Shown piece after piece: positions 13,592 to 39,912 of a DNA stretch of 39,912 nt. A program made the position numbers and the translations under genes. The stretch covers positions 1 through 39,912 of the forward strand of contig JANWJB010000127.1 in assembly GCA_025449575.1 (NCBI GenBank), written 5' to 3'. The stretch's first letter is position 1, and every line of letters begins with the position of its first letter. Below the pieces are notes generated by a model. The model worked only from the letters and a program-made list of their open reading frames with translations, had not been told where the DNA came from and did not search any database. Source of the stretch: Acidobacteriaceae bacterium (GTDB lineage Bacteria > Acidobacteriota > Terriglobia > Terriglobales > Acidobacteriaceae).

Positions 13592-13594
13592 GGC

Positions 13595-16932: not shown

Positions 16933-16934
16933 TG

Positions 16935-17764: not shown

Positions 17765-18276
17765 GGCGTCAGCCTGCGGAGCTCCACCGGGGGCAATTCG
17801 TTTTCCGCCTCGCCCTTTCCTTTGCCCCCGATGCTTACACCAGAGACGCGCCAATAGTTGTAGCCCGGGTATTTACCTGGACCGTCGATGAGCAGATCCT
17901 CTTTTTCATAAACCAAATTCTGGCGGTTGTATTCGGACATTTCGAAGTCCGGTGTGAGCTGGATTGCATAGGTGGGACACGCATCCTCACAATATCCGCA
18001 GAAGATACAACGCGAAAAATTGATCCGAAAAAATTCCGGGTAGCGGCGCTCGTTCTCGTCTTCGGTGGCCTGGAGAGCGATGCAATCTACCGGACACGCA
18101 ATTGCGCATAGGTGGCACGCGACGCAGCGCTCGCCTCCATCGGGATCGCGCGACAAAATAATTCGGCCCCGATAACGCGGCGCTAGATATGCCTTTTGCT
18201 CCGGATATTGAATCGTGACCCGGCGATGAAACGTATGCAGAAACACGCTCCACATTGTCCGGATGATACTAAGCAT
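17761..18276 (-). CDS. nuoI: NADH-quinone oxidoreductase subunit I (two 4Fe-4S clusters)
   Basis: The 171-residue subunit carries clusters N6a and N6b that pass electrons towards NuoB. Two CxxCxxCxxxCP motifs are intact: Cys51, 54, 57, 61 and Cys90, 93, 96, 100. The N-terminal amphipathic region ([22 protein letters not shown]) is the usual membrane-contact segment. The gene lies 24 bases behind nuoH and overlaps nuoJ by four bases. Confidence 0.96.
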
Positions 18277-18300
18277 CTCAGGCCACCTTCCTCATCAGCC

Positions 18301-19251: not shown

Positions 19252-21911
19252 GATGCTCGCTCAATCCTGCACCAAGCAGGAAGCTCCTCTCCACAAAGAG
19301 CGGTCAAGCCCGCCGGGATGCCCGCAAGTCCGGACGGCAACTCTGCCAACACCTTGAGGGGCACCCGCTGTTTCAGGCCGCCGAACGCAACCTCAACCAC
19401 CGTGGGCTTTCCTTCCGCGAGGAAGCCGGCTGCATCGGCAGGATTTAACGCCAAATACGGTTCCGTCACCAGTTCAGCAATGCTAGACGCATGCGCGCTC
19501 AACTCTTCCGAGCCAAAAATATGTTCTATAGGAAGCAGGAGCCATTCCTGCGTGCGTCGAGTGAAGGGATTCGGGATGCCATCGAAGTACCCGCCCCCTG
19601 TTGAGGTTTCAAACAGGCGGACCCCCGGAACGCCTCCTCGCAGCGCTTCACCGATCTCGCTTTGAAATTTATTGACCGCCTGAATCGAGTTCCACCCGGG
19701 AGCCCAGAAAAACGGTTGCAGCGCAGCCGGCGGTTGAATGGAAGCGCCCTCCATCGAATAGGAAAGCGAAGAATCCGGATCGTCGGGCGGCTTGGGCTCG
19801 ACGACGCTGATGTTCGCGGTTATCGAGGTGCGTCCACTGTAGCGATGGGGCTCCCGGGGAATTTTCGCCCCCGCAATGCGGAAACTCGAGAGCGGAGCAG
19901 CCCCGATGACGGAAGCCAGCCGCGGAATCTCTGTGCCGATTTCCGAAAGCACATCATCGAGCGACGACCATGACTGGTCGCCCAGCCATCGCCAACTCTC
20001 CTTTATGCCATCCTCCGGTACGAATACCTGAAAGAACCGCTGTGCGCGACCCTCATTGCTCACCAGCGTTCCGTCAGATTCCGCAAACGTACCGGCCGGC
20101 AGTAGCAGCTCGGCCTTTGCTGTCGTTCCATTTCCGAGTTGATCGAGCACGATCAGATGCGCCGCCTTCGCGAGATAGCCGTCTACCAGCTTTGCCGGGA
20201 GCTGCCGATATAGGTCATTTTCAAGGACGATCAGCGTGGCGTCGCCATGGTCCTGCACCGCCGCGAGCGCTTCGCTCATCGGGCGCGCTCCTAGAAGAGC
20301 CAGGCCAAAACTGTTGCACGCTGGAGCGATGAGGCTTAGCGCCGCGGAATGGCCGTTATCGCACAAGGCGCGCGCCACATTTGCCGCGGACTCAATCACG
20401 GAAATGCTGCGGCAACTTGGCCCGGCAATCACCAGGGGATGCTTCGCGCCCGTCAGTGCGGTGGCGATCGTGGCCGCCAATTCCCGCATCTCGCCGGATA
20501 AGTCGGGAACCTCCGGCGCTTTTGCATCGATTTCGTGAGCCACCGCAAAACCCAGTCGCGCGATATCTTCCGGTGCTGCCTTGTATGTCGCGGTGGCGAC
20601 ATCGTCCAGCCGCGTTGCGCCGGCCGCGGCGATGAAAAGCGGACTCCTCTTTGCCTGAGCAATTTCGCGCACCGCATCATCCATCCAGAGCGGGACGCGT
20701 AGCTTCTGTGTCGTTTCGAAAGATTGCTGACGTAGAGATTGGCGGACACTAAGCGCCATCCGCGGCGCAGAATTCGTAACGTCTTCTCCCAGGATCAACA
20801 CAGCATCGGAAAGCTCAACGTCGCGAAGCGAGGCAGAGCGGGCCGGCCCGGCTTGTAGGATTTCCACCATAGCTCTGGTTCTCTCCCACTCGCCATCGGA
20901 AACGCCGCAGAAGAAGCGATCCTTTCCCACTAGCCGCCGCAACGCGTAATTGGATTCGATGGAAGCTCGCGGAGAGCCGATGCCGATAAGCTGCTGGCCG
21001 CCCGCGACAAGAGAGCTCAGCCGACGCTTCGCCTCCGTGACGGAGGTAGGTGCTCCATTGATTTGGGCTGCACGGATCCTCTGCTCGCTGTTTACGAACT
21101 CATAGCCGTAGCGGCCCCGATCGCAAAGAAAATATCCGTTTACCTCGCTATTGAAGCGGTTCACGACGCGGCGGAGCAGACCGTAGCGTTCTCCCATGGT
21201 GGTGTTGCAGCCGAGGCTGCAGTGGCCGCAGATGGAAGGAGCCATGCGCAGATCCCACTTGCGCGTATAGTGGCGCCGCAGCGTGCGATCGGTGAAGACG
21301 CCGGTGGGGCAGACCTCTACCAGGTTGCCGGCAAACTCACTTTTCAGCACTCCGTCCTGCTCGCGTCCGAAAAAAACTTCGTTGCTGATGCCGAAGGCAT
21401 TTAGATCATCTTCTCCGGCGTAGTTGCGATAAAAGCGGACGCAACGATAGCACTGGATGCAGCGGTTCATCTGGTGATAGACAAAGGGGCCGAGGTACTG
21501 ATCGTGAAAGGTGCGCTTCGGGAAGCGGGAGCGGCGATAGTCGTGGCCGGTCATCACCGTCATATCTTGCAGGTGGCACTCACCGCCTTCATCGCATACC
21601 GGGCAATCGTGGGGATGGTTCAGCATCATCCCTTCGATGATTCCCGCGCGGAATGCAACAGCTTCCGGGTCCTGGAGGGAGATGCGAGTATCGGGAGCGG
21701 CCGGGGTCATGCAGGCCATTACGAGCCGGCCCCTTGTATCTTGGGCGTCCTTGAACTGCTTGACGGCGCATTGGCGGCACGCACCCACCGACCCCATCGC
21801 GGGATGCCAACAGAAGTACGGCAGATTGAGCCCGAGCGAGAGGCAGGCGTGGAGCAGATTCTGCTTAGGATCGGCTTCGCTCGCTTTCCCGTCGATGTAG
21901 ATGGTGCCCAT
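19248..21911 (-). CDS. nuoG: NADH-quinone oxidoreductase subunit G
   Basis: The 887-residue iron-sulfur subunit of the peripheral arm belongs to the long, E. coli-like group (about 900). It has an N-terminal 2Fe-2S site (YFCWHP...GACRQCAV...MAC), the His-Cys3 site [18 protein letters not shown], the N4-type site [15 protein letters not shown] with a later CP, and an additional CGHCSLGC...CDRGRYG set that matches cluster N7. A molybdopterin-oxidoreductase-like domain without cofactor follows, then a poorly conserved C-terminus. The frame allows a TTG at 21929. ATG 21911, which overlaps the nuoF stop as TGATG and has GGAG seven bases ahead, is preferred. Confidence 0.95.
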
Positions 21912-23191
21912 CAGCTTCTCCAAGAACAACGTTTCTCATGAATGTGACGCTCGAAGTCGTCCCGAAAGAACTTCAGAGCGCTCTGGACCGGCTCGGCCGC
22001 GCCGGGAGCCAGAGCGCAAAAGGTATGCCCGGGAGACCAGAATGTCGACAAGTAGGAGAGCTTATCCAGGTCGCCGGGCCTTCCCTGGCCATCTTCTATA
22101 GCGTCGAGAATCTTCGTAGCCCACTTCAGTCCGCTCCAGCAGGGCGTACACCAGCCGCAGGATTCCTGGGCAAAAAAATGAGTGAGATTCGCGGTAATCC
22201 CTACCGGACAGGTTTGATCGTCGAGGACGATCATCGTGCCGGTCCCCAGCCGGCTGCCCGCCTTTTGCACCGAGGTGTAATCCATTGCCACATCGAGATG
22301 CTCTTCCACCAGGAAATCGGTAGAGGCGCCGCCGGGAAGCACTCCACGAAAGCGCACCCCATCACGCATGCCGCCGGCATGCTCTTCCAAAATCTCGCGG
22401 ATCGTCGTGCCCATTGGAAGTTCCCATAGCCCAGGCCGCTTGACCTTGCCGCTAGCACCGTAAAGTTTGGTCCCTGCGTCCTTGGTGAGGCTTAAGCCCT
22501 GAAACCATTTCGCCCCCTTTTCAAGAATGTGGGGCACGTTCGCCAGTGTTTCGACATTATTTACAATTGTCGGCTTGCCCCAGAGTCCTGAAACCTGAGG
22601 GAAGGGCGGTTTGGCGCGAGGATTTGCGCGCTTGCCCTCCAAAGCGTTCAACAAGCCGGTCTCTTCGCCGCACATGTACCGCCCCGCGCTTACATGGAGA
22701 TACATCTCGAGCGCGTAGTCCGAAGAGAGGATGTTCCGGCCAAGATATCCGGCGGAGTATGCCTCCGTAATAGCCCGGGCCAGCCGCTCCTGTGACAATT
22801 TGTACTCGCCGCGGATAAAGATGAACGCGACGTCTGCCTCAATTGCAAATCCCGCCAGGATCAGTCCCTCAATCAATTGGTGAGGATTCCCCTCCATCAG
22901 GTAGCGGTCCTTGAAAGTTCCCGGCTCCATTTCATCTGCATTGGCGACCACGTATTTGGGGCGCGGAGCGTCTGCTCCCATCGGAGTAAAGCTCCACTTC
23001 ATTCCGGTGGGAAAGCCGGCTCCGCCGCGGCCGCGCAAACCGGAATTTGTGACTTCTTCTTGCACCTGTTTGGGTGTCATCTGCAACGCTCTACGCAGCC
23101 CTTGATATCCGCCCAAACGCTCATAGCCCTGGAGGCTGAGAGCTTCGCCGCCGGCCGGTATGCTCTGTGTAAGCGGCTTCTCCGTGGGCAT
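21911..23191 (-). CDS. nuoF: NADH-quinone oxidoreductase subunit F (NADH- and FMN-binding)
   Basis: At about 426 residues this is the entry subunit: NADH binds and reduces FMN. RGRGGAGFPTGMKWSF is the NADH/FMN loop, and the 4Fe-4S cluster N3 is bound by ESCGWCTPC and a Cys about 40 residues later (HTFCALAPGAAEPV). A GTG at 23203 is in frame four codons upstream. ATG 23191, just behind the nuoE stop, is chosen although its ribosome-binding site (GGAAGG) is somewhat distant. It pairs with NuoE. Confidence 0.95.
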   Translation of the reverse strand: MPTEKPLTQSIPAGGEALSLQGYERLGGYQGLRRALQMTPKQVQEEVTNSGLRGRGGAGFPTGMKWSFTPMGADAPRPKYVVANADEMEPGTFKDRYLMEGNPHQLIEGLILAGFAIEADVAFIFIRGEYKLSQERLARAITEAYSAGYLGRNILSSDYALEMYLHVSAGRYMCGEETGLLNALEGKRANPRAKPPFPQVSGLWGKPTIVNNVETLANVPHILEKGAKWFQGLSLTKDAGTKLYGASGKVKRPGLWELPMGTTIREILEEHAGGMRDGVRFRGVLPGGASTDFLVEEHLDVAMDYTSVQKAGSRLGTGTMIVLDDQTCPVGITANLTHFFAQESCGWCTPCWSGLKWATKILDAIEDGQGRPGDLDKLSYLSTFWSPGHTFCALAPGAAEPVQSALKFFRDDFERHIHEKRCSWRS

Positions 23192-23193
23192 GG

Positions 23194-23658
23194 CTATTCG
23201 CACCCTTCCAACAGCGTGTCAATCTTGGCCGGGTCGAGATCGCCGTGAAGTTCGTTATCCACCAATAGCGCGGGCGCATGGCTGCAGTCGCCAAGACATA
23301 CGATAGGCAGAAGCGTGAACCGGTTGTCGGGAGTCGTTTCTCCCATCTGAATTCCCAGCCGTTCAGTCAGATGTGCGCGCATGCGCTCGTAACCCATAAT
23401 CCAACAGCTCACACTGTCACAGAGCATAATGACGTGCTTGCCGACGGGCCTGCGAAAGATCAGGTTGTAGAAAGTCGCAATCCCGTCCAGGTCCCCGGCC
23501 GACATTTCGAGTAACTCGCCGATGTCACGGATGCTTTCATCCGAAACCCAGCCGCGATGGCGCTGCACGATCTTCATCGCATCGATGCAAACCGCCTGCT
23601 TGGTGGGGTAATGGCTGAGCTCCACTTCGATCTCCTGCCGTTCTTCCGCCGTCAACAT
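23194..23658 (-). CDS. nuoE: NADH-quinone oxidoreductase subunit E (2Fe-2S)
   Basis: The 154-residue thioredoxin-like subunit holds the 2Fe-2S cluster N1a. Ligands are seen as CDSVSC followed about 35 residues on by CLGDC, the expected C-x4-C and C-x3-C pairs. The frame continues into nuoCD, but ATG 23658 directly follows GAGGAGAGGAAGG, an excellent ribosome-binding site, and gives a normal family length. The gene lies 13 bases behind nuoCD. Confidence 0.95.
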   Translation of the reverse strand: MLTAEERQEIEVELSHYPTKQAVCIDAMKIVQRHRGWVSDESIRDIGELLEMSAGDLDGIATFYNLIFRRPVGKHVIMLCDSVSCWIMGYERMRAHLTERLGIQMGETTPDNRFTLLPIVCLGDCSHAPALLVDNELHGDLDPAKIDTLLEGCE

Positions 23659-23671
23659 AGCCTTCCTCTCC

Positions 23672-25447
23672 TCACCGGTCCACGTCGGCCAGCACGAAAT
23701 CCATCGCCCCCAGAACGGCAAGCAGATCTGGAATCATGTGGCCTCTTACCAATCGAGGCAACATCTGCATGTGCGCAAACGACGGAGTCCGGATGCGGGT
23801 CCGGTACGAGGTAGTGCTGCCGTCGCTCACAAGGTAGTAGCCGTTGTTTCCTTTCGTCGCCTCAATTGCTCTCAACGACTCACCGGGTGGAATTACCGGC
23901 CCCCATCCCACTCCCAGAAAGTGGGTAATCAAGGTCTCGATGTCGTGCATGGTGCGGTCCTTGAGCGGTGGGCACGCAAGAGGTTGGAGGGATTTATAGG
24001 TTCCTTCCGGCATATTGTCCACGCATTGCTGAATGATGCGCAGGCTCTGCCGCATCTCCTCCACCCGCACCGCTCCACGGTCGTAGCAATCGCCGTGACT
24101 CCCTACCGGAATGTCAAACTCGAAGTTTTCGTAGCCGGAATAAGGTTGCTTCTTACGAAAATCCCATTCGAAGCCGCATGCTCGCAGACCTGGCCCGGTG
24201 ACTCCCCATTCGATGGCTTCCTCGGTGGTAAAGGCGCCCACGCCTTGTGTCCGGCTTTTGAAGATGCGGTTCCGCATGACCTGGGTGTCATACTCCGCCA
24301 GGCGTGGCGGCAGGTATTTTATGAAGTCGCGGATCGGCACATCCCAGCCTTTGGGCAGGTCCTGAGCCACCCCACCGATGCGGAACCAGTTAGGATGCAT
24401 GCGAGCGCCGCAGATGCCCTCAATAATGCCAAAGGCGCGCTCCCGATCGTTGAAGGTATAGAAGACCGGCGAGAGCTGACCGAGGTCCTGGGCAAAAGTT
24501 CCGTACCACACCAGATGACTGATGATGCGGAATAACTCGCACAACATCACGCGGATCACCTGTGCCCGCGGCGGCACAACGATCCCGGCCAGCTCCTCCA
24601 CGGCCATCAAATAAGCCATGTTGTTCATCACGCCGCCCAGGTAATCGATGCGGTCCGTGTATGGGATGTAAGTGTGCCAGGATTGCCGTTCTCCCATCTT
24701 CTCTGCGCCGCGGTGATGAAAGCCGATGTCGGGCACAGCGTCCATAATCTCTTCGCCGTCCAGTTGCAGAACCACCCGCAGTACGCCGTGGGTTCCCGGA
24801 TGCTGTGGTCCCACGTTTAGGAAGACGAAGTCCTCGCCATCCCCTCCCCGATGCATGCCCCAGTCTTCCGGCCGGAAGCGCATTGCTTCCTGTTCTGCAG
24901 CTTCCTTTTCATCAGGAAGATGGAAGGGCCCCATCTCCGTAGCCCTTGCCGGATGATCCTTTCGGAGGGGATGCCCCACCCAGGTTTTTGGCATCAGCAG
25001 CCGTTCCAGATGCGGATGACCGCGGAAGCGGAGACCGAACATATCCCAGACTTCCCGTTCATACCAGTTGGCGGCCGGCCAGAGATCGGTTGCCGTATCG
25101 GCCTCCGGTTGGTCGACGGAAAGAGGCACTTTGATGCGGAGATACTGATTGCGTTCAAAGGAGAGCAGGTGATAGACAAGGGTGAAGTCACTTGCCGGCG
25201 GACCCTCCGGATGGGTCCTCATCCGCTCGTCGATGGCGGTGAGGTCATAGAGCATGCGATACGGGTGGTCAACATCCTCTTTTAAATAGGCGAGCGCTCG
25301 GTGGGCGCTCCCGCGCGGAAGCCAGAAGGTTGGGATGCCGTCAGCCGTGCTTTGGACCTTGATCTCGCCCGCACCCAGCCTCTTCTCCAGCCCGTCCGCA
25401 ATCTTCGCGGCGGTCGTGGCTTCGGCATTGACTGGAACGTCCGTCAT
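23672..25447 (-). CDS. nuoCD: NADH-quinone oxidoreductase subunit C/D fusion
   Basis: The 591-residue protein joins the 30-kDa (NuoC) and 49-kDa (NuoD) subunits, as in enterobacteria. The NuoC part (about 10-185) contains [38 protein letters not shown]. The NuoD part starts near 205 with [18 protein letters not shown] and contains [15 protein letters not shown]-like, [10 protein letters not shown] and [11 protein letters not shown] motifs, ending VLADVDR. NuoD is homologous to [NiFe]-hydrogenase large subunits but lacks the nickel cysteines. It forms the quinone site with NuoB and starts two bases behind nuoB. The fusion is a lineage trait, useful for placing the organism. Confidence 0.96.
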
Positions 25448-27999: not shown

Positions 28000-28503
28000 C
28001 CCGCTCACCGGTATCCCTCCGCCCCCCTTGCTACGTTTCATCCCTGCCGGCACCCCTGGCCGCGCCGAAATTTCTGCATTTGCATTCAGCACGCTGAAAA
28101 ACCTCTTTCTAGCTGTAATGGGCGGTTCTTCCTTCAATCGCGGCCAAGAGGCGTCGCACCTTCGATCCAGGAAAATTCCGGTCGGTCCTGCTCCAGACAT
28201 CGGCGGCCCTGCGTCGCCGTTACTGCTCCGCCTGCATAGGGGAAACCCTGATAGAACCCTCAGTAGTTCGTATGAAGCAAAATAGCGTTCGTCCCCGCTT
28301 GTGACGCAACCTTTGCATTTGTTTCTATTAGGAGGTTCGTGCTGAGTGCTCGCCGCCGCCCTCTTCGCGGACGAGCGCCCAGACAAAACTTCAAGCAGCG
28401 GCGCCCGATCCGAGCATCTCTCCCGGAAAGAACGCCGGTATCCGACTAGGTCGGAAAGCGCGCAAGGAAATGGGGTGCTCCCGCCCCGGCAAAGGAGATG
28501 GCA
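28000..28503. other. Intergenic region upstream of hhyS
   Basis: About 500 bases probably contain the promoter of the hydrogenase operon. A TTGTGA followed 18 bases later by TTCTAT (around 28300-28330) is a weak sigma70-like pair. A free-standing AGGAGG at 28330-28335 is followed by GTG codons at 28339 and 28346. The first opens an Arg-rich frame of 36 codons; the second runs into hhyS out of frame. I see no convincing gene, repeat or terminator here. The minus-strand frame spanning this region is considered a shadow. Confidence 0.4.
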
Positions 28504-29571
28504 ATGCCCGCACATGCAGCAGCGCCCTACGGACAAATTACCCAAAAGAAACCTGCGGTGGCAGAAGTCCACATTCTTTGGATCACCGCTGGCTTGGGTT
28601 GCGACGGAGATTCCGTATCGATCACGGCAGCCACACAGCCAAGCATCGAGGATGTCGTGCTGGGCGCTATTCCAGGCCTGCCGAAGGTGCATCTGCATAA
28701 CCCGGTTCTCGCTTATGAGACCGGTGACGAATTCATGAAGTACTGGTATCTCGCTGAGGAAGGGAAGCTCGACCCCTTCGTTTTGGTGGTGGAAGGCTCT
28801 ATCCCAAACGAAAAGATCAAGGAGGAAGGCTATTGGGCAGCTCTGGGAACGAATCCAGATACCGGTCAGCCTATACCCACGACGGAGTGGATCGACCGCT
28901 TGGCTCCAAAGGCCTTGGCGGTGGTCGGTGCGGGCACGTGCGCCACTTACGGCGGCATCCACGCAATGGAGGGCAATCCAACGGGGTGTATGGGTTTGGC
29001 GGATTACCTCGGATGGGGCTGGAAATCTAAAGCGGGGCTCCCCATCGTAAATGTCCCGGGGTGTCCGGTGCAGCCGGATAATTTTATGGAGACGTTGCTT
29101 TATTTGCTGTATCAGGTGGCTGGCCGTGCGCCGATGATCCCGCTCGACGAACAACTGCGGCCCAAATGGCTCTTTGAACAAACAGTGCATCAAGGCTGCG
29201 ACCGGGCCGGCTATTACGAAGAGGGTGATTTTGCCTCATCCTATAACTCCCATAAATGCCTTGTGAAGATTGGATGCTGGGGTCCGGTGGTGAATTGTAA
29301 TGTCCCCAAGCGTGGTTGGATGGCAGGATTGGGAGGCTGTCCGAATGTTGGAGGAATTTGCATTGGCTGCACCATGCCCGGCTTTCCAGATAAATTCATG
29401 CCCTTCATGGATGAGCCGCCGGGGGGCAGGCTATCCAGCACCGCCATCGCAACCTACGGAAAGGCAATTCGGACTCTCCGCGCGGTAACGAACCATACCG
29501 TAAACAAAGAGCCTAAGTGGCGGCATTCGCGCAGCCAACTTACTACTGGTTATCAGCCACAGTCCTATTAA
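28504..29571 (+). CDS. hhyS: [NiFe]-hydrogenase small subunit, group 1h/5 (actinobacterial type)
   Basis: The 355-residue electron-transfer subunit carries three iron-sulfur clusters. In the proximal motif the usual CxxC is Cys33-Asp-Gly-Asp36, as in the actinobacterial-type enzyme of Ralstonia eutropha, whose proximal cluster is held by three Cys and one Asp. Further ligands are VGAGTCATYGG, VPGCPVQPDNF, the distal set TVHQGC...KCLVKIGCWGP, and the medial region NCNVPKRGW...GGCPNVGGICIGC. In that last region an additional Cys occupies the place that is Pro in three-iron medial clusters. There is no Tat signal or C-terminal membrane helix, so the enzyme should face the cytoplasm. AAAGGAG (28491-28497) abuts an ATG at 28498. 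ATG 28504, six bases farther, has proper spacing and is chosen. Confidence 0.95.
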   Translation: MPAHAAAPYGQITQKKPAVAEVHILWITAGLGCDGDSVSITAATQPSIEDVVLGAIPGLPKVHLHNPVLAYETGDEFMKYWYLAEEGKLDPFVLVVEGSIPNEKIKEEGYWAALGTNPDTGQPIPTTEWIDRLAPKALAVVGAGTCATYGGIHAMEGNPTGCMGLADYLGWGWKSKAGLPIVNVPGCPVQPDNFMETLLYLLYQVAGRAPMIPLDEQLRPKWLFEQTVHQGCDRAGYYEEGDFASSYNSHKCLVKIGCWGPVVNCNVPKRGWMAGLGGCPNVGGICIGCTMPGFPDKFMPFMDEPPGGRLSSTAIATYGKAIRTLRAVTNHTVNKEPKWRHSRSQLTTGYQPQSY

Positions 29572-29598: not shown

Positions 29599-31407
29599 AT
29601 GGGCACGACTACGACGATCGAGCGCAACCAAGAGGCCGCCGGCAAAGGGCAGTTAGTGGAGATGAACTGGGATCCGATAACCCGGATCGTGGGCAGCCTC
29701 GGCATCTTTACCAAGATCGATTTCGGCAAGCGCAAGGTGGCCGAGTGCCACAGCACTTCCTCGATATTCCGCGGCTACAGCATCTTCATGAAGGGCAAAG
29801 ATCCGCGCGATTCCCATTTCATCACCAGCCGTATCTGCGGTATTTGTGGCGACAATCATGCCACCTGCGCGACCTATGCGCAGAATATGGCTTTCGGCGT
29901 GCGACCCCCGGCGATTGCCGAATGGATCGTCAATCTGGGTGAGGCTGCCGAGTACATGTTCGACCACAATATCTTTCAGGACAATCTGGTCGGGGTGGAT
30001 TTCTGCGAGCAAATGGTCAAGGAAACGAACCCCGGCGTCTTCGAGAAAGCGGAAAAGACCGAGTCCCCGCACGCCGGTGTGCACGGCTATCGCACCATTG
30101 CCGACATCATGCGCGCCCTCAATCCGTTTACCGGCGCCTTCTATCGCGAAGCGCTGCAAATGAGCCGTCTTACCCGGGAAATGTTCTGCCTGATGGAAGG
30201 GCGACACGTGCATCCTTCCACTCTTTATCCGGGCGGTGTGGGCACGGTAGCGACGGTTCAGCTGTTTACCGACTACATCGTGCGGCTAATGAAGTACGTG
30301 GAGTTCATGAAGAAGGTGGTTCCGCTGCACGACGACCTCTTCGACTTCTTTTACGAAGCCCTTCCCGGATATGAGGAAGTCGGCAGGCGAAGAATTCTTC
30401 TCGGTTGCTGGGGCTCGTTCAACGATCCCGATGTGTGCGACTACACCTATCAGAAGATGACCGACTGGGGCCGCGCCATGTATGTGACGCCCGGTGTGAT
30501 TATCGACGGGAAGCAAGTGACTACCGATCTAGTAGACATCAATTTGAACATCCGCATTCTGCTGGGCAGTTCTTATTATGACGACTGGCAGAATGCCGAG
30601 ACCTTCGTAAAGCACGACCCGCTGGGCAATCCGGTGGACCAGCGGCATCCCTGGAACCAAAGCACCATTCCGCGACCACAGAAACGGGACTTTGCCGGTA
30701 AGTACACGTGGGTCATGTCCCCGCGCTGGTACGACAAACGTACGGGCGACTATCTGGCGCTCGATACGGGGGGTGGTCCCATCGCTCGCTTCTGGTCCAC
30801 TGCGTTGGCTGGCTTAGTGGACATCGGCTACATCAAAGCAACCGGCCACAGCGTCAAGATTTATCTCCCCAAGACAATGTCGCTTCCTGAAACCGAGTTG
30901 GAATGGAAGATACCGAAGTGGAGCAACGCCATTGAGCGTGATCGGGCGCGGACCTACTTTCAGGCTTATGCTGCTGCAGCCGCTCTCCATTTTGCCGAGA
31001 AGGCCCTGGCCGAGCTGCACGCGGGCAGAACCAAAACCTGGAATGACTTTAAAGTTCCGGAAGACGCGATCGGGTGCGGTTTCCACGAGGCGGTGCGTGG
31101 AGTGCTGTCGCATCATGTGGTGATTCGCGGGAAAAAAATCGCGAATTACCACCCCTATCCACCCACCCCGTGGAACGCGAATCCTCGCGATATTTACGGG
31201 ACGCCGGGGCCATATGAGGATGCGGTCCAGAACACCCCCATCTTTGAGGAGAATGGGCCGGAAAACTTCAAAGGTATCGACATCATGCGCACGGTCAGGA
31301 GTTTCGATCCATGCCTGCCATGCGGGGTTCACATGTATCTGGGAGATGGCAGGGTGCTGGAGACCCATCACTCCCCAATGTTCGGGATGCAATCGTCCCA
31401 ACCTTGA
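29599..31407 (+). CDS. hhyL: [NiFe]-hydrogenase large subunit, group 1h/5
   Basis: The 602-residue catalytic subunit oxidises H2 at a Ni-Fe(CN)2CO centre. Nickel ligands are Cys80 and Cys83 (RICGICGDNHATC) and Cys572 and Cys575 (DPCLPCGVH). Maturation should cut after His578, removing a 24-residue tail. The sequence throughout (WDPITRIVGSLGIFTKIDF, MEGRHVHPSTLYPGGVGT, WSTALAGLVDIGYIKATG) is that of the high-affinity actinobacterial-type group, which in other bacteria scavenges atmospheric H2. GGGAG stands about seven bases before the ATG. It lies 27 bases behind hhyS. High affinity is a family property and is not readable directly from sequence. Confidence 0.96.
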   Translation: MGTTTTIERNQEAAGKGQLVEMNWDPITRIVGSLGIFTKIDFGKRKVAECHSTSSIFRGYSIFMKGKDPRDSHFITSRICGICGDNHATCATYAQNMAFGVRPPAIAEWIVNLGEAAEYMFDHNIFQDNLVGVDFCEQMVKETNPGVFEKAEKTESPHAGVHGYRTIADIMRALNPFTGAFYREALQMSRLTREMFCLMEGRHVHPSTLYPGGVGTVATVQLFTDYIVRLMKYVEFMKKVVPLHDDLFDFFYEALPGYEEVGRRRILLGCWGSFNDPDVCDYTYQKMTDWGRAMYVTPGVIIDGKQVTTDLVDINLNIRILLGSSYYDDWQNAETFVKHDPLGNPVDQRHPWNQSTIPRPQKRDFAGKYTWVMSPRWYDKRTGDYLALDTGGGPIARFWSTALAGLVDIGYIKATGHSVKIYLPKTMSLPETELEWKIPKWSNAIERDRARTYFQAYAAAAALHFAEKALAELHAGRTKTWNDFKVPEDAIGCGFHEAVRGVLSHHVVIRGKKIANYHPYPPTPWNANPRDIYGTPGPYEDAVQNTPIFEENGPENFKGIDIMRTVRSFDPCLPCGVHMYLGDGRVLETHHSPMFGMQSSQP

Positions 31408-32838: not shown

Positions 32839-33478
32839 CCTGGCCTTTGCCGTGCGAGACGCAGCAGTCGTTCCATTTGCCGCTTCGCCGATGCTGGCAT
32901 TCAAACTCGGCATCGAGAATCGCTGCGCAGGGGAAAAGATACACACCATTGCGTTGCGGTGCCAGCTCCAGATTGAGACGACGCGCCGGCGTTACAGCGC
33001 GGAGGAGCAAGAGCGCATGCTCGACCTCTTTGGCGTGCCAAGCCGCTGGAGCCAGACCTTGCATAGCCTTCTATGGATCAATGCCGGCATGGTGGTTCCC
33101 GGCTTCGAAACAGAGACGGTAGCCGACCTGCAAATTTGCTGTACCTTCGACTTCAATGTCGCTACCACCAAGTACTTTGCAGCGCTTCGCGGAGGCGACC
33201 TGCCATTGCAGTTTTTGTTCAGCGGCACCGTCTTTTACGAAGACGCCGAAGGGGCGCTTCAGGCGGCGCCGATCTCCTGGGAGCAGGAGGCTCGTTACAA
33301 GCTCCCGGTGAGCGTGTGGCGTGGAATGATGGATTCCTATTATCCAAATACCGTCTGCCTGAATCTGCGTCGTGACGTGTTTGAGCGGCTCTGCCAGTAC
33401 AAAATGCAGCGCGGCATTCCCACTTGGGATCAGGCGCTGGAGAGTGTGCTGCCTGTAGAAGACGCGGTGACCCCATGA
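32831..33478 (+). CDS. DUF6084 family protein, hydrogenase-associated
   Basis: The 215-residue protein matches from memory DUF6084, another uncharacterised family that accompanies group 1h hydrogenases. Family-like stretches are FKLGIENRCAGEKIHTIALR, RRRYSAEEQERMLDLFG, CTFDFNVATTKYFAALRGG, LQFLFSGTVFYED and the end GIPTWDQALESVL. No cysteine cluster, signal peptide or membrane segment is present. The pattern of short strands suggests a beta-sandwich. The frame is open upstream to 32774. ATG 32831 inside the end of the DUF5947 gene is chosen because similarity begins at this point, and GGGGAGAAG lies before it. Confidence 0.82.
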   Translation: MPDLAFAVRDAAVVPFAASPMLAFKLGIENRCAGEKIHTIALRCQLQIETTRRRYSAEEQERMLDLFGVPSRWSQTLHSLLWINAGMVVPGFETETVADLQICCTFDFNVATTKYFAALRGGDLPLQFLFSGTVFYEDAEGALQAAPISWEQEARYKLPVSVWRGMMDSYYPNTVCLNLRRDVFERLCQYKMQRGIPTWDQALESVLPVEDAVTP

Positions 33479-34533
33479 ACAGGGATGGTGTGGAAGCGAT
33501 TGCCGATGCTGTGCTCTACGAAGGGTACATGCTGTATCCCTATCGCACATCGTCGGTAAAAAATCGGCAGCGTTGGAACTTTGGCGTTTTGGCCCCCCAG
33601 CCGTCCAGCGGCCAAGAGAGTTTCGACCCTTCGAGCATGCAAGCGGAATGCCTGCTGGAGTGCGATTCCACTACACAGGTGACGGTAAAAGTTCGTTTCC
33701 TGCAGATTGTTCGGCGCTTCGTCGGCAGACTGCTCTCCCCGCGGCGCGACGTTCATTTCGGCGGCGAAACCCGCTATGACCTCGTAGACGCGCTGGACCT
33801 AGAGGGAACGAAACACGTTCCGTGGGAGGAAGCGCGGGAGCGCGAAGTGATCTTGGCGGCTCTTCTACCCTGCGGCGGAGGAAAGCCCGCCTCTCTATCG
33901 TTTGAATTCGCTGCCGGATGCGAGTATGAGCCGCTCTGCCGCACCGACGGCTGGACTGTCGGCGTCATTGTTCGCCAGTGGGAAGCTCTGTCCGGCTCGG
34001 TCGAAGTGTCCTGGCAAGCATGCGAAGCAACCCTCGTAAAAGCCACCGTAGCGGTTTTAAACCGATCGGAGACTGCGTCTTCGCCGGAGCAGGGACGCAC
34101 CGGACTACTTCCGTGCTCGCTCCTCTCCACGCACGCCATTCTTAGAGCCACAAATGGCCAGTTTGTCTCCCTGCTTGAACCGCCCGAGCATTGGAAGGCT
34201 TGGGCAGAACAATGCGCCAACCGGGGAGTCTGGCCGGTTCTGGCCGGCAGCGAAGGAGACCGGAGCACGGTACTCTGCTCGCCGATCATTCTCTATGACT
34301 ACCCGCGGATCGCACCGGAAAGCCCGGGCAGCCTCTTCGATGGAACGGAAATCGATGAAATTCTGTCTCTGCGGATTCTCACCATGACGGAGGAGGAGAA
34401 GCAGGAAATGCGGCAGTCCGACGATCGCACGCGAGAGATCCTTGAGCGCACCGAGAACATGCCGCCAGAGCAGTTCATCAAGCTCCACGGCGCACTGCGC
34501 GGATTGCGCACTCTGTCACCGGAGGCGGAATGA
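33475..34533 (+). CDS. Uncharacterised hydrogenase-associated protein, 352 residues
   Basis: I do not know a name for this family. Similar proteins beginning VADAVLYEGYxLYPYR occur in group 1h hydrogenase clusters of actinobacteria, as I recall them. Here the start is VEAIADAVLYEGYMLYPYRTSS, followed by RWNFGVLAP, a middle region with WEEAREREV, and a C-terminal helical part NMPPEQFIKLHGALRGLR. It is cytoplasmic-looking, has several Cys residues without a clear cluster motif, and is rich in predicted strands. The ATG forms ATGA with the preceding stop, and its own stop forms ATGA with the next gene, so it is translationally locked into the operon. Confidence 0.8.
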   Translation: MNRDGVEAIADAVLYEGYMLYPYRTSSVKNRQRWNFGVLAPQPSSGQESFDPSSMQAECLLECDSTTQVTVKVRFLQIVRRFVGRLLSPRRDVHFGGETRYDLVDALDLEGTKHVPWEEAREREVILAALLPCGGGKPASLSFEFAAGCEYEPLCRTDGWTVGVIVRQWEALSGSVEVSWQACEATLVKATVAVLNRSETASSPEQGRTGLLPCSLLSTHAILRATNGQFVSLLEPPEHWKAWAEQCANRGVWPVLAGSEGDRSTVLCSPIILYDYPRIAPESPGSLFDGTEIDEILSLRILTMTEEEKQEMRQSDDRTREILERTENMPPEQFIKLHGALRGLRTLSPEAE

Positions 34534-35366
34534 ACGGTTGGGAATGGCAATTGCTTGAGGATAAGACGCCACTCGATCACGTTGTCGTATCGGGTGTCGA
34601 GTTGCGCGTGGGCAATCGCGTGCGCCTCCTGCCGCGTAAAGGTGGGGACATTCTGGATATCGCACTGCAGGGACAAGAGGCCACGGTGGAGAGCCTGGAG
34701 CAGGATTACGAAGGGAAACCGCACGTCTGCGTCGTTCTCGATGCCGATCCAGGGCGCGATCTAGGATTGCTGCGCCAGCCTGGCCACCGCTTCTTCTTCG
34801 ATGCATCGGAGGTGGAGCCTCTGCCCCCGGACAGACAGCATCCAGCCGCGGTCGTGCAGAAGCCGGGCATTTTGGTGGCGGGTATCGGCAACATCTTTCT
34901 GGGAGACGATGGTTTCGGCGTCGAGGTAGTCCAACGTCTCTGCCGGCGCCAATTTCCCTCCGCTGTGCGGGTGGCCGATTTCGGCATACGGGGCCTCGAC
35001 TTGGCATATGCGCTCCAAGATGGATACAGCACCGCGATTCTGATCGATGCCTTTCCTCATGGAGGGCTGCCGGGCACCGTGTATGTGGTGGAGCTGGATC
35101 TAAACGACGCTACGGCTTTTCCCGCTTCCGCAAATGTGACCGAAGCACACGCCATGGACCCGATGAGCGTTCTGCGCATGGCCGCCGCAATGCGTGGTCC
35201 GCTGAAGCGCGTTCTGCTGGTGGGCGCCGAGCCGGAGAGTTTTGGCGGTGCGGATGGACGAATAGGCTTGAGCGCTCCGTTGGAAGCTGCGCTTGGCGAG
35301 GCGCTGCAGGCAACCGAGAAATGGATTCATAAGATTCTGGCGGAAGACTCTGCGAGAGCCGATTGA
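34530..35366 (+). CDS. Hydrogenase maturation endopeptidase with extra N-terminal domain
   Basis: The 278-residue protein has two parts. Residues about 112-265 are a HyaD/HupD-type nickel-dependent endopeptidase: GILVAGIGNIFLGDDGFGVEVV contains the N-terminal Gly-rich loop and the Asp for Ni sensing, and LIDAFPHGGLPGTVYV and EAHAMDPMSVL carry the further Asp and His. It should cut HhyL behind His578. Residues 1-105 are an added domain, strand-rich with VELRVGNRVRLLPRKGGDILD and GKPHVCVVLDADPGRD, resembling a small SH3-like barrel. Classical proteases are about 160 residues and lack this. The added part may recognise HhyL or tether the protease. It overlaps the previous gene as ATGA. Confidence 0.87.
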   Translation: MNGWEWQLLEDKTPLDHVVVSGVELRVGNRVRLLPRKGGDILDIALQGQEATVESLEQDYEGKPHVCVVLDADPGRDLGLLRQPGHRFFFDASEVEPLPPDRQHPAAVVQKPGILVAGIGNIFLGDDGFGVEVVQRLCRRQFPSAVRVADFGIRGLDLAYALQDGYSTAILIDAFPHGGLPGTVYVVELDLNDATAFPASANVTEAHAMDPMSVLRMAAAMRGPLKRVLLVGAEPESFGGADGRIGLSAPLEAALGEALQATEKWIHKILAEDSARAD

Positions 35367-35396: not shown

Positions 35397-35705
35397 ATGT
35401 GTTTAGCCATACCGGGTAAGATCGTCAGCCTCGTGCCGGACCAGGAGCATATCGGAACTGTAGAAGTTGCAGGCGTGCGGCGAAAGGTAGACCTGGGATT
35501 GCTCCAGGAGGAGCCACCCAAGGCAGGCGATTGGGTCCTGATCCACGTCGGGTTTGCCATGAGTAAGATCAGCGAACAGGATGCGTTGGAACAAATGCAT
35601 CTCCTCCAGATGCTGGGAGAGAGCGACCTGGCGATGCAAGAGGTCCGCGGTTATGGCTTGGAAGAGGATGGCGACTCCGGTCCACCTGCCGCCAAAGCGA
35701 ACTAG
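35397..35705 (+). CDS. hypC: Hydrogenase maturation chaperone HypC
   Basis: The 102-residue protein starts MCLAIPGKI, with the essential Cys2, as in all HypC/HybG proteins. VRRKVDLGLLQEE, GDWVLIHVGFAMSKISEQDA and the helical end are also typical. HypC carries the iron-cyanide-carbonyl unit together with HypD to the hydrogenase large subunit. GGAGAGAAGG stands about eight bases ahead. The C-terminal tail after residue 80 is longer than average. It lies 30 bases behind the protease gene, one of the few real gaps in this operon. Confidence 0.96.
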   Translation: MCLAIPGKIVSLVPDQEHIGTVEVAGVRRKVDLGLLQEEPPKAGDWVLIHVGFAMSKISEQDALEQMHLLQMLGESDLAMQEVRGYGLEEDGDSGPPAAKAN

Positions 35706-35783
35706 CTCTATCGAGGAAAGACACTCAGCTCAAAGCATGTGCGAGCTTTTTATTTGGGCGGCGAAAAGAAAGGGAGGCTTTCG

Positions 35784-36917
35784 ATGCGGTTTGTAGACGA
35801 ATTTCGAGATCCGGAGTTGATCGCCAAAGCCTCCGATGAGATCCGCCGGCTATCCGATCCGAATAGGCACTATCGTTTCATGGAAGTTTGCGGTGGGCAT
35901 ACTCACGCTATCTACCGTTTTGGCCTGAAAGATATTCTTCCCTCCAATATCGAGTTGATTCATGGGCCTGGCTGTCCGGTATGCGTGCTGCCGATGGGCA
36001 GAATCGATGATGGCCTGGCCGTGGCGAAAGATGCCAACGTGGTCTTCACCGCTTTCGGCGACATGATGCGGGTGCCGGGGACCCATGGAAGCCCGCTCGA
36101 GCATAAGGCCCGGGGCGTCGATGTGCGCATCGTCTACTCCCCCGCCGACGCGCTCCAGCTTGCGAGAAGAAATCCCGATAAGCAGATCATGTTCTTCGCG
36201 ATTGGTTTTGAGACCACGGCGCCCTCTACCGCTCTCACGCTGATGCGGGCGAAGGCGGAGGGCGTGAAAAATTTCTCCGTATTTTGCAATCACGTCACCA
36301 TCGTTCCTGGGATCAGAGCCATTCTGGATTCGCCCGACATGCGGTTGGATGCATTTATCGGGCCGGGTCATGTCTCAACGGTGATTGGCTGCCGCCCCTA
36401 TGAATGGATTGCGCGGACGGAAAATAAGCCGGTGGTCACCTCGGGCTTCGAGCCGCTTGATCTGCTGCAATCCATTGTTATGCTGCTGCGGCAGCTCAAG
36501 GCGGGCGAGGCTAAGGTAGAGAACCAGTACAAGCGCGTGGTGCCTTGGGAGGGCAATCGTGCGGCATTGAAGGTGCTGGCCGAGGTTTTCCAACTCCGAC
36601 CCTATTTCGAATGGCGCGGGTTGGGCTTCATTTCGCAATCGGCTTTGAAGCTCCGCGACGAGTATGCGGAGTGGGATGCGGAGCGGCGCTATCCCATTCC
36701 CGGCACCCGGGTTACCGACCCCAAGGCAGCCCAGTGCGGAGAGGTATTGAAGGGGGTGCTCAAGCCCGCGCAGTGCAAGCTGTTCGGCAATAAGTGCACT
36801 CCGGAACATCCGATAGGCGCACTCATGGTTTCCTCAGAGGGTTCATGCGCAGCATATTACAACTACGAACACCGCAAAGCGGCGGCGATGGCGAGCAGCG
36901 CGGGCTCGGCAGCTTGA
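35784..36917 (+). CDS. hypD: Hydrogenase maturation protein HypD
   Basis: The 377-residue iron-sulfur protein forms the HypC-HypD scaffold on which Fe(CN)2CO is assembled. MEVCGGHTHAIYRFG contains the conserved Cys and His, followed by HGPGCPVCVLP, FAIGFETTAPSTA, HVTIVPG and GFEPLDLL. The C-terminal 4Fe-4S cysteines are in AAQCGEVLKG, AQCKLFGNKCTPEHP and SSEGSCAAYYNY. The frame is open 15 codons upstream, but ATG 35784 is preceded by AGGGAGG and matches the family start (MRFVDEFRD). Its stop overlaps the hypE start region. Confidence 0.96.
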   Translation: MRFVDEFRDPELIAKASDEIRRLSDPNRHYRFMEVCGGHTHAIYRFGLKDILPSNIELIHGPGCPVCVLPMGRIDDGLAVAKDANVVFTAFGDMMRVPGTHGSPLEHKARGVDVRIVYSPADALQLARRNPDKQIMFFAIGFETTAPSTALTLMRAKAEGVKNFSVFCNHVTIVPGIRAILDSPDMRLDAFIGPGHVSTVIGCRPYEWIARTENKPVVTSGFEPLDLLQSIVMLLRQLKAGEAKVENQYKRVVPWEGNRAALKVLAEVFQLRPYFEWRGLGFISQSALKLRDEYAEWDAERRYPIPGTRVTDPKAAQCGEVLKGVLKPAQCKLFGNKCTPEHPIGALMVSSEGSCAAYYNYEHRKAAAMASSAGSAA

Positions 36918-37972
36918 ATGGAAGCGCTGCCGCGGCGGCCGTGGCTTCTTCCATTCGCTTTAGCGATCCGCAGATTGCAATGGCGCACGGCGCCGGCGGC
37001 AAGGCTAGCCGCAGACTTGTCGAAGGCCTGTTTGTGCCGCTTTTATCTGGAGGCCTGCGAGAAGCGCTGGGTGACGCCGCGCGGGTGAGCTTTGGTGGAT
37101 CGACGGTGGCGATTACCACCGACAGCTTTGTCGTCCGGCCGCTTCGCTTTCCAGGCGGTTCCATTGGTGAGCTGGCGGTGAACGGCACCATGAATGATCT
37201 GGCGGTCTCCGGTGCCAAGGGAGAAGCCATGGTGGCGACCTTCGTTCTTGAAGAAGGTCTGGCGACCTCGGTGCTTGAGGCGGAGATCCGCGCCATGGCG
37301 GCAGCCCTTTGCGCGGCCGACGTTGCCCTCGTGGCAGGAGATACGAAGGTGGTTGAACGCGGCAAGGCCGATGGCATGTACATCACCACCACTGGCATCG
37401 GTTCGCCGCTGTCGCAGGTATGCGTGGATCCGCGGTCGGTTCGCCGCGGAGACAAGATCCTGCTCTCCGGCCCGATCGGCGACCATGGCATCACGATTTT
37501 GCTTGCGCGCGGCGATCTTGATCTTGAGGCGGAACTGGCCTCCGATACCCGCTGCATTCTGCCCTTGGTGGAGGCGCTGGCGCGCGCGGCGGGACCGGGA
37601 ATTCGCTGGATGCGCGACCCCACGCGGGGTGGCGTTGCCACCGTGCTCAACGAACTTGCACGTGACTGCGGCCTGGGCGTCGTGCTGGAAGAAAAAGAGC
37701 TTCCCGTGCGCGACCAGGTACGAGGAGCTTGTGAATTGCTCGGACTGGACCCTTTGCATATCGCGAATGAAGGCCAATTCGTCGCAGTGGTTGCGCCGGA
37801 ATATGCCGATGCGGCGCTGAACGCGCTTCGGAGCACCCCCGGAGGCGAAGATGCCTGCGCCATCGGCGAGGTGCGGTCCGAGCCGGCATGCGCAGTGTTG
37901 GTGATGACCAATTATGGCGGCAGCCGGATCGTCGATATGCTGATCGGCGACCCGCTCCCCCGCATTTGTTAG
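36914..37972 (+). CDS. hypE: Hydrogenase maturation protein HypE
   Basis: The protein of about 352 residues dehydrates its own C-terminal thiocarboxamide to form cyanide. It has AHGAGGKASRRLVEGLF, TTDSFVVRPLRFPGGSIGELAVNGTMNDLAVSGA (ATP-binding AIRS fold), MRDPTRGGVATVLNE and the required C-terminal PRIC, whose Cys receives the carbamoyl group from HypF. The start is uncertain: TTG 36914 overlaps the hypD stop as TTGA and gives a usual length, while GTG 36941 or ATG 36980 are later options. The long open frame upstream of 36914 runs inside hypD and has no HypE similarity. Confidence 0.92.
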   Translation: MNGSAAAAAVASSIRFSDPQIAMAHGAGGKASRRLVEGLFVPLLSGGLREALGDAARVSFGGSTVAITTDSFVVRPLRFPGGSIGELAVNGTMNDLAVSGAKGEAMVATFVLEEGLATSVLEAEIRAMAAALCAADVALVAGDTKVVERGKADGMYITTTGIGSPLSQVCVDPRSVRRGDKILLSGPIGDHGITILLARGDLDLEAELASDTRCILPLVEALARAAGPGIRWMRDPTRGGVATVLNELARDCGLGVVLEEKELPVRDQVRGACELLGLDPLHIANEGQFVAVVAPEYADAALNALRSTPGGEDACAIGEVRSEPACAVLVMTNYGGSRIVDMLIGDPLPRIC

Positions 37973-37984
37973 GACGTGGCGCCC

Positions 37985-39163
37985 ATGGAAACGGAATGCA
38001 AACTGGCGGCTCAGATAGAAGAACGGTTATTGCTACGCAATGAAATCCTGGAACAGTTCTTCTCCCGCGAGTCCACACATCTGGCGGAAGCGTGCCAGGA
38101 GATGGCAGAACGCTTCCTCAAGGGCGGCCGATTGCTGGCTTTTGGCCGGGGTTGCTATTCGACCGATGCGCAGCATGTTTCGGTAGAGTTCGTGCATCCG
38201 GTCATCGTTGGCAAGCGGGCTCTGCCCGCGCTCGATCTCTCCTTGGAATTCCGCTCCTGGGTCGATGCGATCCTGCGTCCTGAAGACATCGTGATGGGCT
38301 TCGGGCCGCCCCAAGGCGACCCGGAGGTGCTCGCTGTGCTGGAGCGGGCGCATGCGCGCAAGGCGATGACTTTCGCCCTTCCCGGACCGCATGGCTCCTA
38401 CGCGCTGAAGGCGTCAACCGAGGATCCCTTCATCCACCAGGAGCTGGTGGAGATCTTCTACCACACGCTCTGGGAGACGGTGCATGTCTTCTTTGAGCAC
38501 CGCGAGTTAGGGCAGGACGTCGGCCAAGCGGAGTTCCTCTATCCGTTTCTCGGACAGAAGAAACAAGAAACCGGCGACATCGTCGCCGAGGTAGCGGCCT
38601 CCATCGAAATGAAGGTGCAAGACGATGCTCTACTGCGGACACGCTTGGCGAAAGAACAGTCCGAAGCGATTGGCAATGCCGCGGTCGCCATTCACGATCG
38701 CCTCGCGCGGGGAGGAAAGCTGATCCTGTTTGGCAACGGAGGATCAGCCACCGACGCCAACGATTGGGCGCTTGACTGCGTGCTTCCTCCGGCGGGGTAC
38801 CGCGTCGTGCCGGCAATATCGCTATCGCTGGAGCCGGCAAATATCACCGCGCTCGCCAACGACGTCGGGGCCGAGGTCATCTTCTTGCGCCAGCTCATTG
38901 CTCAGGCCCGTCCGGAAGATATCGCAGTAGGCATCTCCACCAGCGGAGGCTCGCGCAACATCGTGATGGCGTTGGAGGAGGCGCGGAAGCGCGAACTGTT
39001 GACGGTAGGCCTGCTTGGCTACGACGGGGGAGAGATCGTGCGCAGAAAACTGGTGGATTTCCCCGTGATCGTGCGCAGCGACTACATTCCGCGTATCCAG
39101 GAGATTCAAGCCTCCGCATATCACGTCATCCGGGAAATGCTGGAGGTGCTTGACCATGCTTGA
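37985..39163 (+). CDS. Tandem SIS-domain protein (GmhA-like) in the hydrogenase operon
   Basis: The 392-residue protein contains two sugar-isomerase (SIS) domains. The second (about 215-385) is close to phosphoheptose isomerase GmhA: LFGNGGSATDA phosphate loop, GISTSGGSRNIVMALEEAR and the final YHVIREMLEVL with the conserved His. The first (about 20-195) is a degenerate copy: GRGCYSTDA replaces GNGGSxxDA and GFGPPQGDPEV replaces the GxSxSG loop. In domain two the GmhA active-site AEE appears as ALD, so heptose isomerisation is doubtful. AGGA lies before ATG 37985; a GTG at 37976 is also in frame. Its stop overlaps the next gene. The role in hydrogenase formation is unknown. Confidence 0.85.
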   Translation: METECKLAAQIEERLLLRNEILEQFFSRESTHLAEACQEMAERFLKGGRLLAFGRGCYSTDAQHVSVEFVHPVIVGKRALPALDLSLEFRSWVDAILRPEDIVMGFGPPQGDPEVLAVLERAHARKAMTFALPGPHGSYALKASTEDPFIHQELVEIFYHTLWETVHVFFEHRELGQDVGQAEFLYPFLGQKKQETGDIVAEVAASIEMKVQDDALLRTRLAKEQSEAIGNAAVAIHDRLARGGKLILFGNGGSATDANDWALDCVLPPAGYRVVPAISLSLEPANITALANDVGAEVIFLRQLIAQARPEDIAVGISTSGGSRNIVMALEEARKRELLTVGLLGYDGGEIVRRKLVDFPVIVRSDYIPRIQEIQASAYHVIREMLEVLDHA

Positions 39164-39389
39164 ACTCTATGGCTCGGCAAATTGTCCCTACACCCGCGAA
39201 GTGCGCGAATGGCTGGAGTGGACGCGGCGGGAATTTGTGGAATACGACGTGGAGGCCGATGCCGCTGCGCGGGAGCGCATGGCCCGCCTGGAGGGCAGTC
39301 CGCGTACGGTGCCCATTCTGGTGGACAATGGCCGCGTGCTGCAGGTCGGATGGCAGGGCCGTGGCTGTGTAGTGGGCGCGAGGGCATGA
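39156..39389 (+). CDS. Small glutaredoxin-like thiol protein
   Basis: The 77-residue protein is a minimal glutaredoxin fold: LELYGSANCPYTREVREWL has the CPYT active site (Cys10, second Cys replaced by Thr, so monothiol) and TVPILVDNGRVLQVGW has the cis-Pro. It ends with GRGCVVGARA, where Cys71 might act as resolving thiol or metal ligand. It resembles a glutaredoxin-related (seleno)protein group that I recall as UXX-star; this label is tentative. The ATG overlaps the SIS gene's stop and its own stop overlaps the hypF start as ATGA, so it is coupled on both sides. A redox or Fe-S role in maturation is possible. Confidence 0.8.
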   Translation: MLELYGSANCPYTREVREWLEWTRREFVEYDVEADAAARERMARLEGSPRTVPILVDNGRVLQVGWQGRGCVVGARA

Positions 39390-39912
39390 TGGCAGCCGCT
39401 CGCTCCATTCGCATACGGGGCGTGGTGCAAGGTGTGGGCTTTCGTCCCTTCGTCTATCGCGTGGCGCGGGCCAAAATGCTCGCCGGGTGGGTGCTCAACG
39501 GCGAGCAGGGAGTAGAGATTCATCTGGAGGGCTCCGAAGAGGACTTGGCTGCCGCGGTCGAGGAGATAAAGGTAAGGCATCCGTCCGCCGCTCATATTGC
39601 CGAGCTGCAAGTGCGTTCCGCATCCTTCGAGGGGCTGAGCGATTTCACTATTCGGGAGAGTGAAAGGCTTGGCCGCCCGACCGTGCGCATTTCCGCGGAT
39701 CTCCCTGTCTGTGATGCCTGCCTTTCCGAACTCTTCGATCCTTCGAACCTGCGGTATCGCTATCCCTACATCAACTGCACCGCTTGCGGACCGCGCTACA
39801 GCGTCATCCTCTCCCTGCCCTATGACCGGCCCAACACGACGATGCGCCGGTGGCCGATGGACGATTTCTGTAACCGCGAGTATCACGATCCCGCGAATCG
39901 CAGATTTGACGC
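39386..39912 (+). CDS. hypF: Carbamoyltransferase HypF, N-terminal part (cut by window edge)
   Basis: HypF transfers the carbamoyl group of carbamoyl phosphate to HypE. The visible 175 codons contain the N-terminal acylphosphatase domain (RIRGVVQGVGFRPFVYRVA, residues 8-26) and the first zinc-finger pair, CDAC and CTAC about 18 residues apart, followed by GPRYS and LPYDRPNTTM. The Sua5-like and Kae1-like domains lie beyond the window. The ATG at 39386 overlaps the glutaredoxin-like gene's stop as ATGA; a second ATG follows directly. HypA and HypB, needed for nickel insertion, are probably encoded farther downstream or elsewhere. Confidence 0.95.
   Translation, partial: MMAAARSIRIRGVVQGVGFRPFVYRVARAKMLAGWVLNGEQGVEIHLEGSEEDLAAAVEEIKVRHPSAAHIAELQVRSASFEGLSDFTIRESERLGRPTVRISADLPVCDACLSELFDPSNLRYRYPYINCTACGPRYSVILSLPYDRPNTTMRRWPMDDFCNREYHDPANRRFD

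Follow-up and report, generated by a model that had tools for sequence, protein, structure and literature searches.

An apparently uncharacterised two-domain SIS protein with a divided GmhA-like active site in the hyp operons of [NiFe]-hydrogenases

The window analysed here, a stretch of 39,912 nucleotides from an Acidobacteriaceae genome, carries in its hyp operon the gene for a protein with two SIS domains, which we call dSIS. We conclude that dSIS is a real and widely conserved accessory of [NiFe]-hydrogenase maturation, and an apparently uncharacterised one. The gene belongs to the hyp operon and is conserved there, its product has the fold of GmhA, its two domains have lost complementary parts of the active site, and relatives in other lineages are fused to HypC. 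We give a probability of about 0.6 to the reading that dSIS is catalytic and acts at HypC/HypD on a phosphorylated sugar-like metabolite, an estimate from which any step towards CO is excluded. The relevant features of the window are as follows.

28498-29571, + strand: [NiFe]-hydrogenase small subunit, group-1h type (78% identity to the actinobacterial-type hydrogenase of C. necator pHG1)
29599-31407, + strand: [NiFe]-hydrogenase large subunit, group-1h type (83% identity to the same C. necator pHG1 hydrogenase)
34530-35366, + strand: hydrogenase maturation protease, HycI/HyaD type (family matches)
35397-35705, + strand: hypC (TIGR00074)
35739-36917, + strand: hypD (TIGR00075, 499.8 bits)
36794-37972, + strand: hypE (TIGR02124, 391 bits; ORF coordinates)
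37985-39163, + strand: dSIS, two-domain SIS (GmhA-like) protein of 392 aa (ORF, Pfam SIS_2, 72 orthologues)
37985-38509, + strand: dSIS domain 1 (A half, residues 1-175)
38573-39160, + strand: dSIS domain 2 (B half, residues 197-392)
39156-39389, + strand: Uxx, glutaredoxin-like protein of the Uxx-star family, 77 aa (NF041212, alignment, fold)
39386-39912, + strand: hypF, truncated by the window end (TIGR00143; start ATG at 39386)

From 28498 the + strand carries, in order, the hydrogenase structural genes, a NifU-like gene, DUF5947, DUF6084, a protein without a family, the protease, hypC, hypD, hypE, dSIS, Uxx and hypF. The dSIS gene starts at the ATG at 37985, with an alternative GTG at 37976, and its stop codon ends at 39163. 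The protein matches the SIS superfamily (PF13580, SIS_2) at 81.9 bits against a Pfam gathering cut-off of 27; its C-terminal half is GmhA-like and its N-terminal half is a divergent SIS domain. An earlier note on this DNA had given the same coordinates, gene order and domain content for 37985-39389, and the ORF, Pfam and NCBIfam results agree with it. The overlapping start and stop codons that it described were found between dSIS and Uxx (8 nt) and between Uxx and hypF (4 nt), but hypE and the dSIS ATG are separated by a gap of 12 nt. The true start of hypE probably lies further inside its ORF, since the TIGR02124 model begins at residue 60. A 369-aa ORF (33424-34533) without any Pfam or NCBIfam match separates DUF6084 from the protease, and genes without a family occupy the equivalent position in many group-1h clusters. 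Upstream of the hydrogenase locus, the - strand is occupied by genes for an RND efflux system (5531-11271) and by the nuo operon of complex I (12164-25447), both ordinary.

GTDB genomes were scanned with an alignment of five orthologues as the query. The scan returned 74 loci, 72 of which have the fused dSIS. By their record titles, and with some records being MAGs that are possibly misbinned, the 74 loci span about ten phyla: Acidobacteriota, Thermomicrobia/Chloroflexota, Deinococcota, Gemmatimonadota, Planctomycetota, Eremiobacterota, Bacillota, Actinomycetota and a few others, with the H2 scavenger Pyrinomonas methylaliphatogenes among them. Where the contig of a fused-dSIS locus permits the check, the gene immediately before dSIS is hypE in 61/67 and the one immediately after it is Uxx in 63/67; hypF is found within 1.2 kb in 52/62. 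The order hypE-dSIS-Uxx-hypF is kept from Acidobacteriota to Deinococcota, Thermomicrobia and Bacillota. It also occurs on plasmids of Thermus thermophilus and Sulfobacillus acidophilus, the only ones in the plasmid collection to carry Uxx of the window type. Because this order is conserved across phyla, chance placement beside the hyp genes is ruled out. The earlier note had placed dSIS and the small protein in a hyp operon, and its placement extends well beyond the window: rather than occurring mainly in unrelated loci, the pair keeps its linkage to hyp genes from phylum to phylum.

Among 60 acidobacterial hypD neighbourhoods, SIS was present in 4/6 with group-1h markers versus 2/54 of the others (Fisher p 4e-4); two acidobacterial loci (L134, L163) have group-1h genes and no SIS. 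Four loci have dSIS with no Uxx detected (L087, L096, L117, L122), and at L148 Uxx adjoins a mere deletion remnant of dSIS. This in-frame deletion remnant (11200-11345) lies between hypE and Uxx and retains about 20 residues from the start of dSIS and about 30 from its end. The stretch examined for that locus showed no hydrogenase structural genes, and the remnant is either decay after hydrogenase loss or a MAG assembly artefact. At a Thermus thermophilus locus (L050), a co-oriented gene for a PIG-L family deacetylase (15736-16680) lies downstream of hypF.

A bare association of SIS proteins with hydrogenases is not new, since SIS_2 proteins are included in a table of recurrent [NiFe]-hydrogenase neighbours (PMC12727194). 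In a network study, GmhA was connected to HypD and HypE in Clostridium, with no explanation given (PMC3231954). The literature searched contained neither an account of what a SIS protein does in a hyp cluster nor biochemical or mutant data on one. The novelty lies not in the fold but in the divided site, in the fusion to HypC and in the hyp setting.

The active-site residues of dSIS are distributed over its two domains. Domain 1 keeps His64, Glu68, Gln152 and His160 and has lost the phosphate loops; the metal triad of GmhA (His64, Glu68, His160) is present in this domain in 72/72 dSIS. Domain 2 keeps GNGGS (250-254), STSGGS (318-323), Gln372 and His380, with both loops and Gln372 retained in 72/72, and has Asp260 and Asp264 at the positions of His61 and Glu65 of GmhA. 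The residues invariant over the 72 proteins are His64, Glu68, Gln152, His160, Gly250-Ser254, Asp257, Asp260, Asp264, Ser318-Gly321, Ser323, Gln372 and His380. The term degenerate, used in the earlier note for one of the SIS domains, does too little justice to domain 1, whose metal-site residues are invariant in all 72 orthologues.

Half-sites were then compared on E. coli GmhA numbering, taking dSIS domain 1 and actinobacterial SIS-A as A halves and dSIS domain 2 and SIS-B as B halves. All 30 A halves kept His61, Glu65 and His180 and the GNGGS and STSGNS phosphate loops were lost; both loops were present in 29/29 B halves, with His61 and Glu65 lost. Single-domain hyp-SIS proteins (n=8) and GmhA (n=29) kept all active-site residues. 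In the separate actinobacterial genes, Gln172 was found in 0/10 A and 9/9 B sequences. GmhA formed a separate clade in the tree (100/100), and the B halves formed one clade (100/97) adjacent to single hyp-SIS (83/86); the tree gave no resolution on whether the A halves are a single clade or where they belong. The AlphaFold2 model of dSIS (pLDDT 90.5, pTM 0.90) comprises two GmhA folds. In solved GmhA, one monomer supplies His/Glu/His and its neighbour a Gln to bind the zinc (PMC5387315), and the paired sites operate one at a time (PMC5705639). Because the GmhA metal takes its ligands from two subunits in this way, dSIS looks, by sequence and analogy, like a GmhA-like pair cut down to one composite working site.

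Relatives of dSIS occur in hyp clusters in several other arrangements. In the group-1h cluster of Cupriavidus necator and in Afipia carboxidovorans, a single-domain SIS gene separates hypC from hypD; in Methylocystis parvus such a gene stands between hypF and hypD. The single hyp-SIS gene of C. necator H16 is H16_RS31885. On plasmids of Bradyrhizobium, Mesorhizobium, Novosphingobium and Sphingopyxis the single-domain gene adjoins hypD, and in some Acidobacteriota it is found amid hyp genes. In actinobacteria the A and B halves are often separate genes; nine Mycobacteriales genomes encode the A half joined N-terminally to a HypC domain, with a B gene coming next. Since HypC is the Fe(CN)2CO-carrying chaperone, the SIS-HypC fusion puts the A half at the scaffold.

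In five actinobacterial loci (L278, L279, L280, L284, L285) an additional HypC-type gene has been kept, in three cases near hhyS, and the extended flanks are without SIS genes. The similarly arranged L191 has SIS-B, HypC and SIS-A at this place, which suggests that the five loci lost SIS and retained its partner HypC. One acidobacterial locus (L190, G331:C23) has separate SIS-A and SIS-B genes beside hypA; its B half clusters with actinobacterial SIS-B in the tree, and horizontal transfer is possible.

The small protein encoded downstream of dSIS matches NF041212 (Uxx-star) with 66.4 bits in the window, 75.0 in Thermus and 78.9 in Pyrinomonas against a cut-off of 66. It has the motif C10-P-Y-T13 and a second invariant cysteine, Cys71, near the C-terminus; the ortholog alignment shows Cys10, Pro53, Gly65, Gly68 and Cys71 to be invariant. 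The CPYT motif and Cys71 rule out a classical monothiol (CGFS) glutaredoxin, and the label "monothiol glutaredoxin" given earlier does not fit a protein that scores as Uxx-star. There is no selenocysteine: Cys10 and Cys71 are encoded by Cys codons, and Cys forms fall within the family model, as the word "(seleno)protein" in its name indicates. The predicted fold resembles glutaredoxins, with BC3987 and Grx as its nearest matches. The window protein also matches Pfam GST_N_3, and no Uxx relatives were found in viral contigs. In the Parageobacillus Huc cluster, a protein annotated as GST-N is encoded between hypE and hypF and is induced about 280-fold with hypCDE at near-zero growth (PMC12976888). 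From this position and the GST_N_3 match of the window protein, we infer that the Parageobacillus protein is a Uxx homologue. Uxx is probably a thiol-redox or metal-handling partner of HypC/D/E/F; judged by its fold and position, it may reduce thiols of HypD or HypC or carry metal to them.

We propose that dSIS is probably an accessory devoted to Fe(CN)2CO assembly at the HypC/HypD scaffold. Its ancestor would be a metal-dependent sugar-phosphate isomerase of GmhA type that was duplicated and whose two copies then lost complementary parts. The two halves of dSIS would build one active site, to which domain 1 would contribute His64, Glu68 and His160, and domain 2 the phosphate loops and Gln372. 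Given the invariance of the two phosphate loops of domain 2, the protein probably binds a phosphorylated sugar-like ligand, a suggestion of the earlier note that the sequence comparison favours, and it most likely converts such a metabolite at the scaffold. Docking of dSIS itself on HypC/HypD is suggested by the fusions in other lineages rather than by dSIS. An extra conserved enzyme, fused to HypC in some lineages and found mostly alongside atmospheric-H2-type hydrogenases, offers a named gene that could be deleted in tractable bacteria. Even without CO production, dSIS would mark a step of Fe(CN)2CO assembly that is missing from current schemes.

The earlier note had tentatively linked the SIS protein to synthesis of the CO ligand. 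That the product of dSIS goes into the CO ligand in the absence of HypX is speculative, and we regard it as rather doubtful. A more specific form of this idea we consider unlikely: a composite metal site at HypC/HypD would produce CO, or a direct precursor of it, from a phosphorylated sugar in HypX-less aerobes, perhaps by cleavage of an enediolate at a redox metal. If true, hyp-SIS would be a second enzymatic source of the CO ligand in aerobes without HypX. Circumstantial support comes from the SIS-HypC fusions and from the distribution of HypX, which is present in 1/50 genomes drawn from SIS-bearing loci, the exception being Nonomuraea with separate A and B genes. High-affinity H2 oxidisers are known to have HypX as an optional gene (PMC4767420), and it was not found in the window's own genome (83% complete). 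None of the loci examined has HypX and SIS in one hyp cluster; C. necator and seven Bradyrhizobium plasmids carry them in different clusters.

Across 80 HypD-positive genomes, 12 had HypX only, 25 SIS only, one both and 42 neither (Fisher p 0.051, lineage uncontrolled); across 33 actinobacterial group-1h genomes the corresponding counts were 8, 8, 0 and 17 (p 0.15, lineage uncontrolled). These counts point weakly to mutual exclusion of HypX and SIS. With both genes missing from 42/80 and 17/33 genomes, a general rule that SIS replaces HypX was not upheld. When the flanks of eleven "neither" loci were extended and scanned with A-, B- and single-type HMMs, no SIS was found. The CO idea is weakened because 17/33 actinobacterial group-1h genomes have neither gene, and the many aerobic group-1h genomes with neither, together with the acidobacterial loci L134 and L163, which have no SIS, also count against reading dSIS as a maturation enzyme.

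SIS domains act as sugar-phosphate sensors in regulators. A similar role for the SIS pair, binding a sugar phosphate without useful turnover and gating Hyp assembly by carbon status, is an unlikely alternative. It would account for the invariant phosphate loops, and such hydrogenases are made in starvation, the T. roseum maturation operon being up 3.1-fold (PMC6776052). However, a pure sensor has no need of His64, Glu68 and His160, yet this triad is likewise invariant, and the divided loss leaves one complete catalytic set.

We give a low probability to a role in iron handling, in which His64, Glu68, His160 and Gln372 would hold Fe(II) and pass it to HypC/HypD, with the phosphorylated ligand completing the site. 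It is the triad-bearing half that is fused to HypC, and the thiol protein Uxx adjoins dSIS. The source of the cofactor iron is debated, although E. coli work points to the Isc system (PMC10847431). Iron handling leaves the strict conservation of two phosphate loops unexplained. It is equally improbable that dSIS is a non-catalytic scaffold joining HypC, HypD and HypE as DiaA does for DnaA: the close fold match to DiaA (4u6n) and the SIS-HypC fusions would suit such a role, but the complementary retention of catalytic residues would not be expected. An ordinary GmhA of heptose synthesis, in the operon by chance, is the best-scoring characterised family but a highly improbable explanation, ruled out by a TIGR00441 score (136.8 bits) far under the cut-off of 209.45, by the separate GmhA clade, and by hyp synteny over many phyla; the same genome has a GmhA-like gene elsewhere (G000:C13; L002 in the tree).

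Several known systems come close to dSIS or Uxx. Like HypX, dSIS is an optional extra maturation gene in the hydrogenase clusters of aerobes, and a shared role is a possible hypothesis. Unlike HypX, which consists of formyltransferase and enoyl-CoA hydratase-like domains, dSIS carries SIS domains only; HypX-type CO synthase domains are absent, and the two have no sequence or domain in common. Uxx shares with the Uxx-star family the C/U-x-x-T motif, and many orthologues have a Cys two residues before the C-terminal stop; it differs from the Uxx-star (seleno)proteins in having Cys in place of Sec and in its linkage to hypE-dSIS-hypF. The isomerase half of GlmS also has tandem SIS domains in one chain, but it matches dSIS with a TM of only 0.57 over both domains at 14% identity, and domain 2 of dSIS is of GmhA type. 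DiaA, the SIS protein that binds DnaA, is alike in fold, whereas dSIS retains catalytic residues, split over two halves, and has hyp genes as its partner genes. With GmhA (sedoheptulose-7-phosphate isomerase, TIGR00441; PDB 1tk9, 2x3y, 2xbl) dSIS shares the fold, at a Foldseek E of 5e-13 and a TM of 0.93 per domain, as well as paired sites and, when both dSIS halves are summed, the metal residues and phosphate loops. In contrast to GmhA, dSIS has no complete site in one protomer type, His61/Glu65 occurring in domain 1 only and the phosphate loops in domain 2 only: its two domains are fused, its active site is divided between them, and a hyp operon takes the place of heptose genes.
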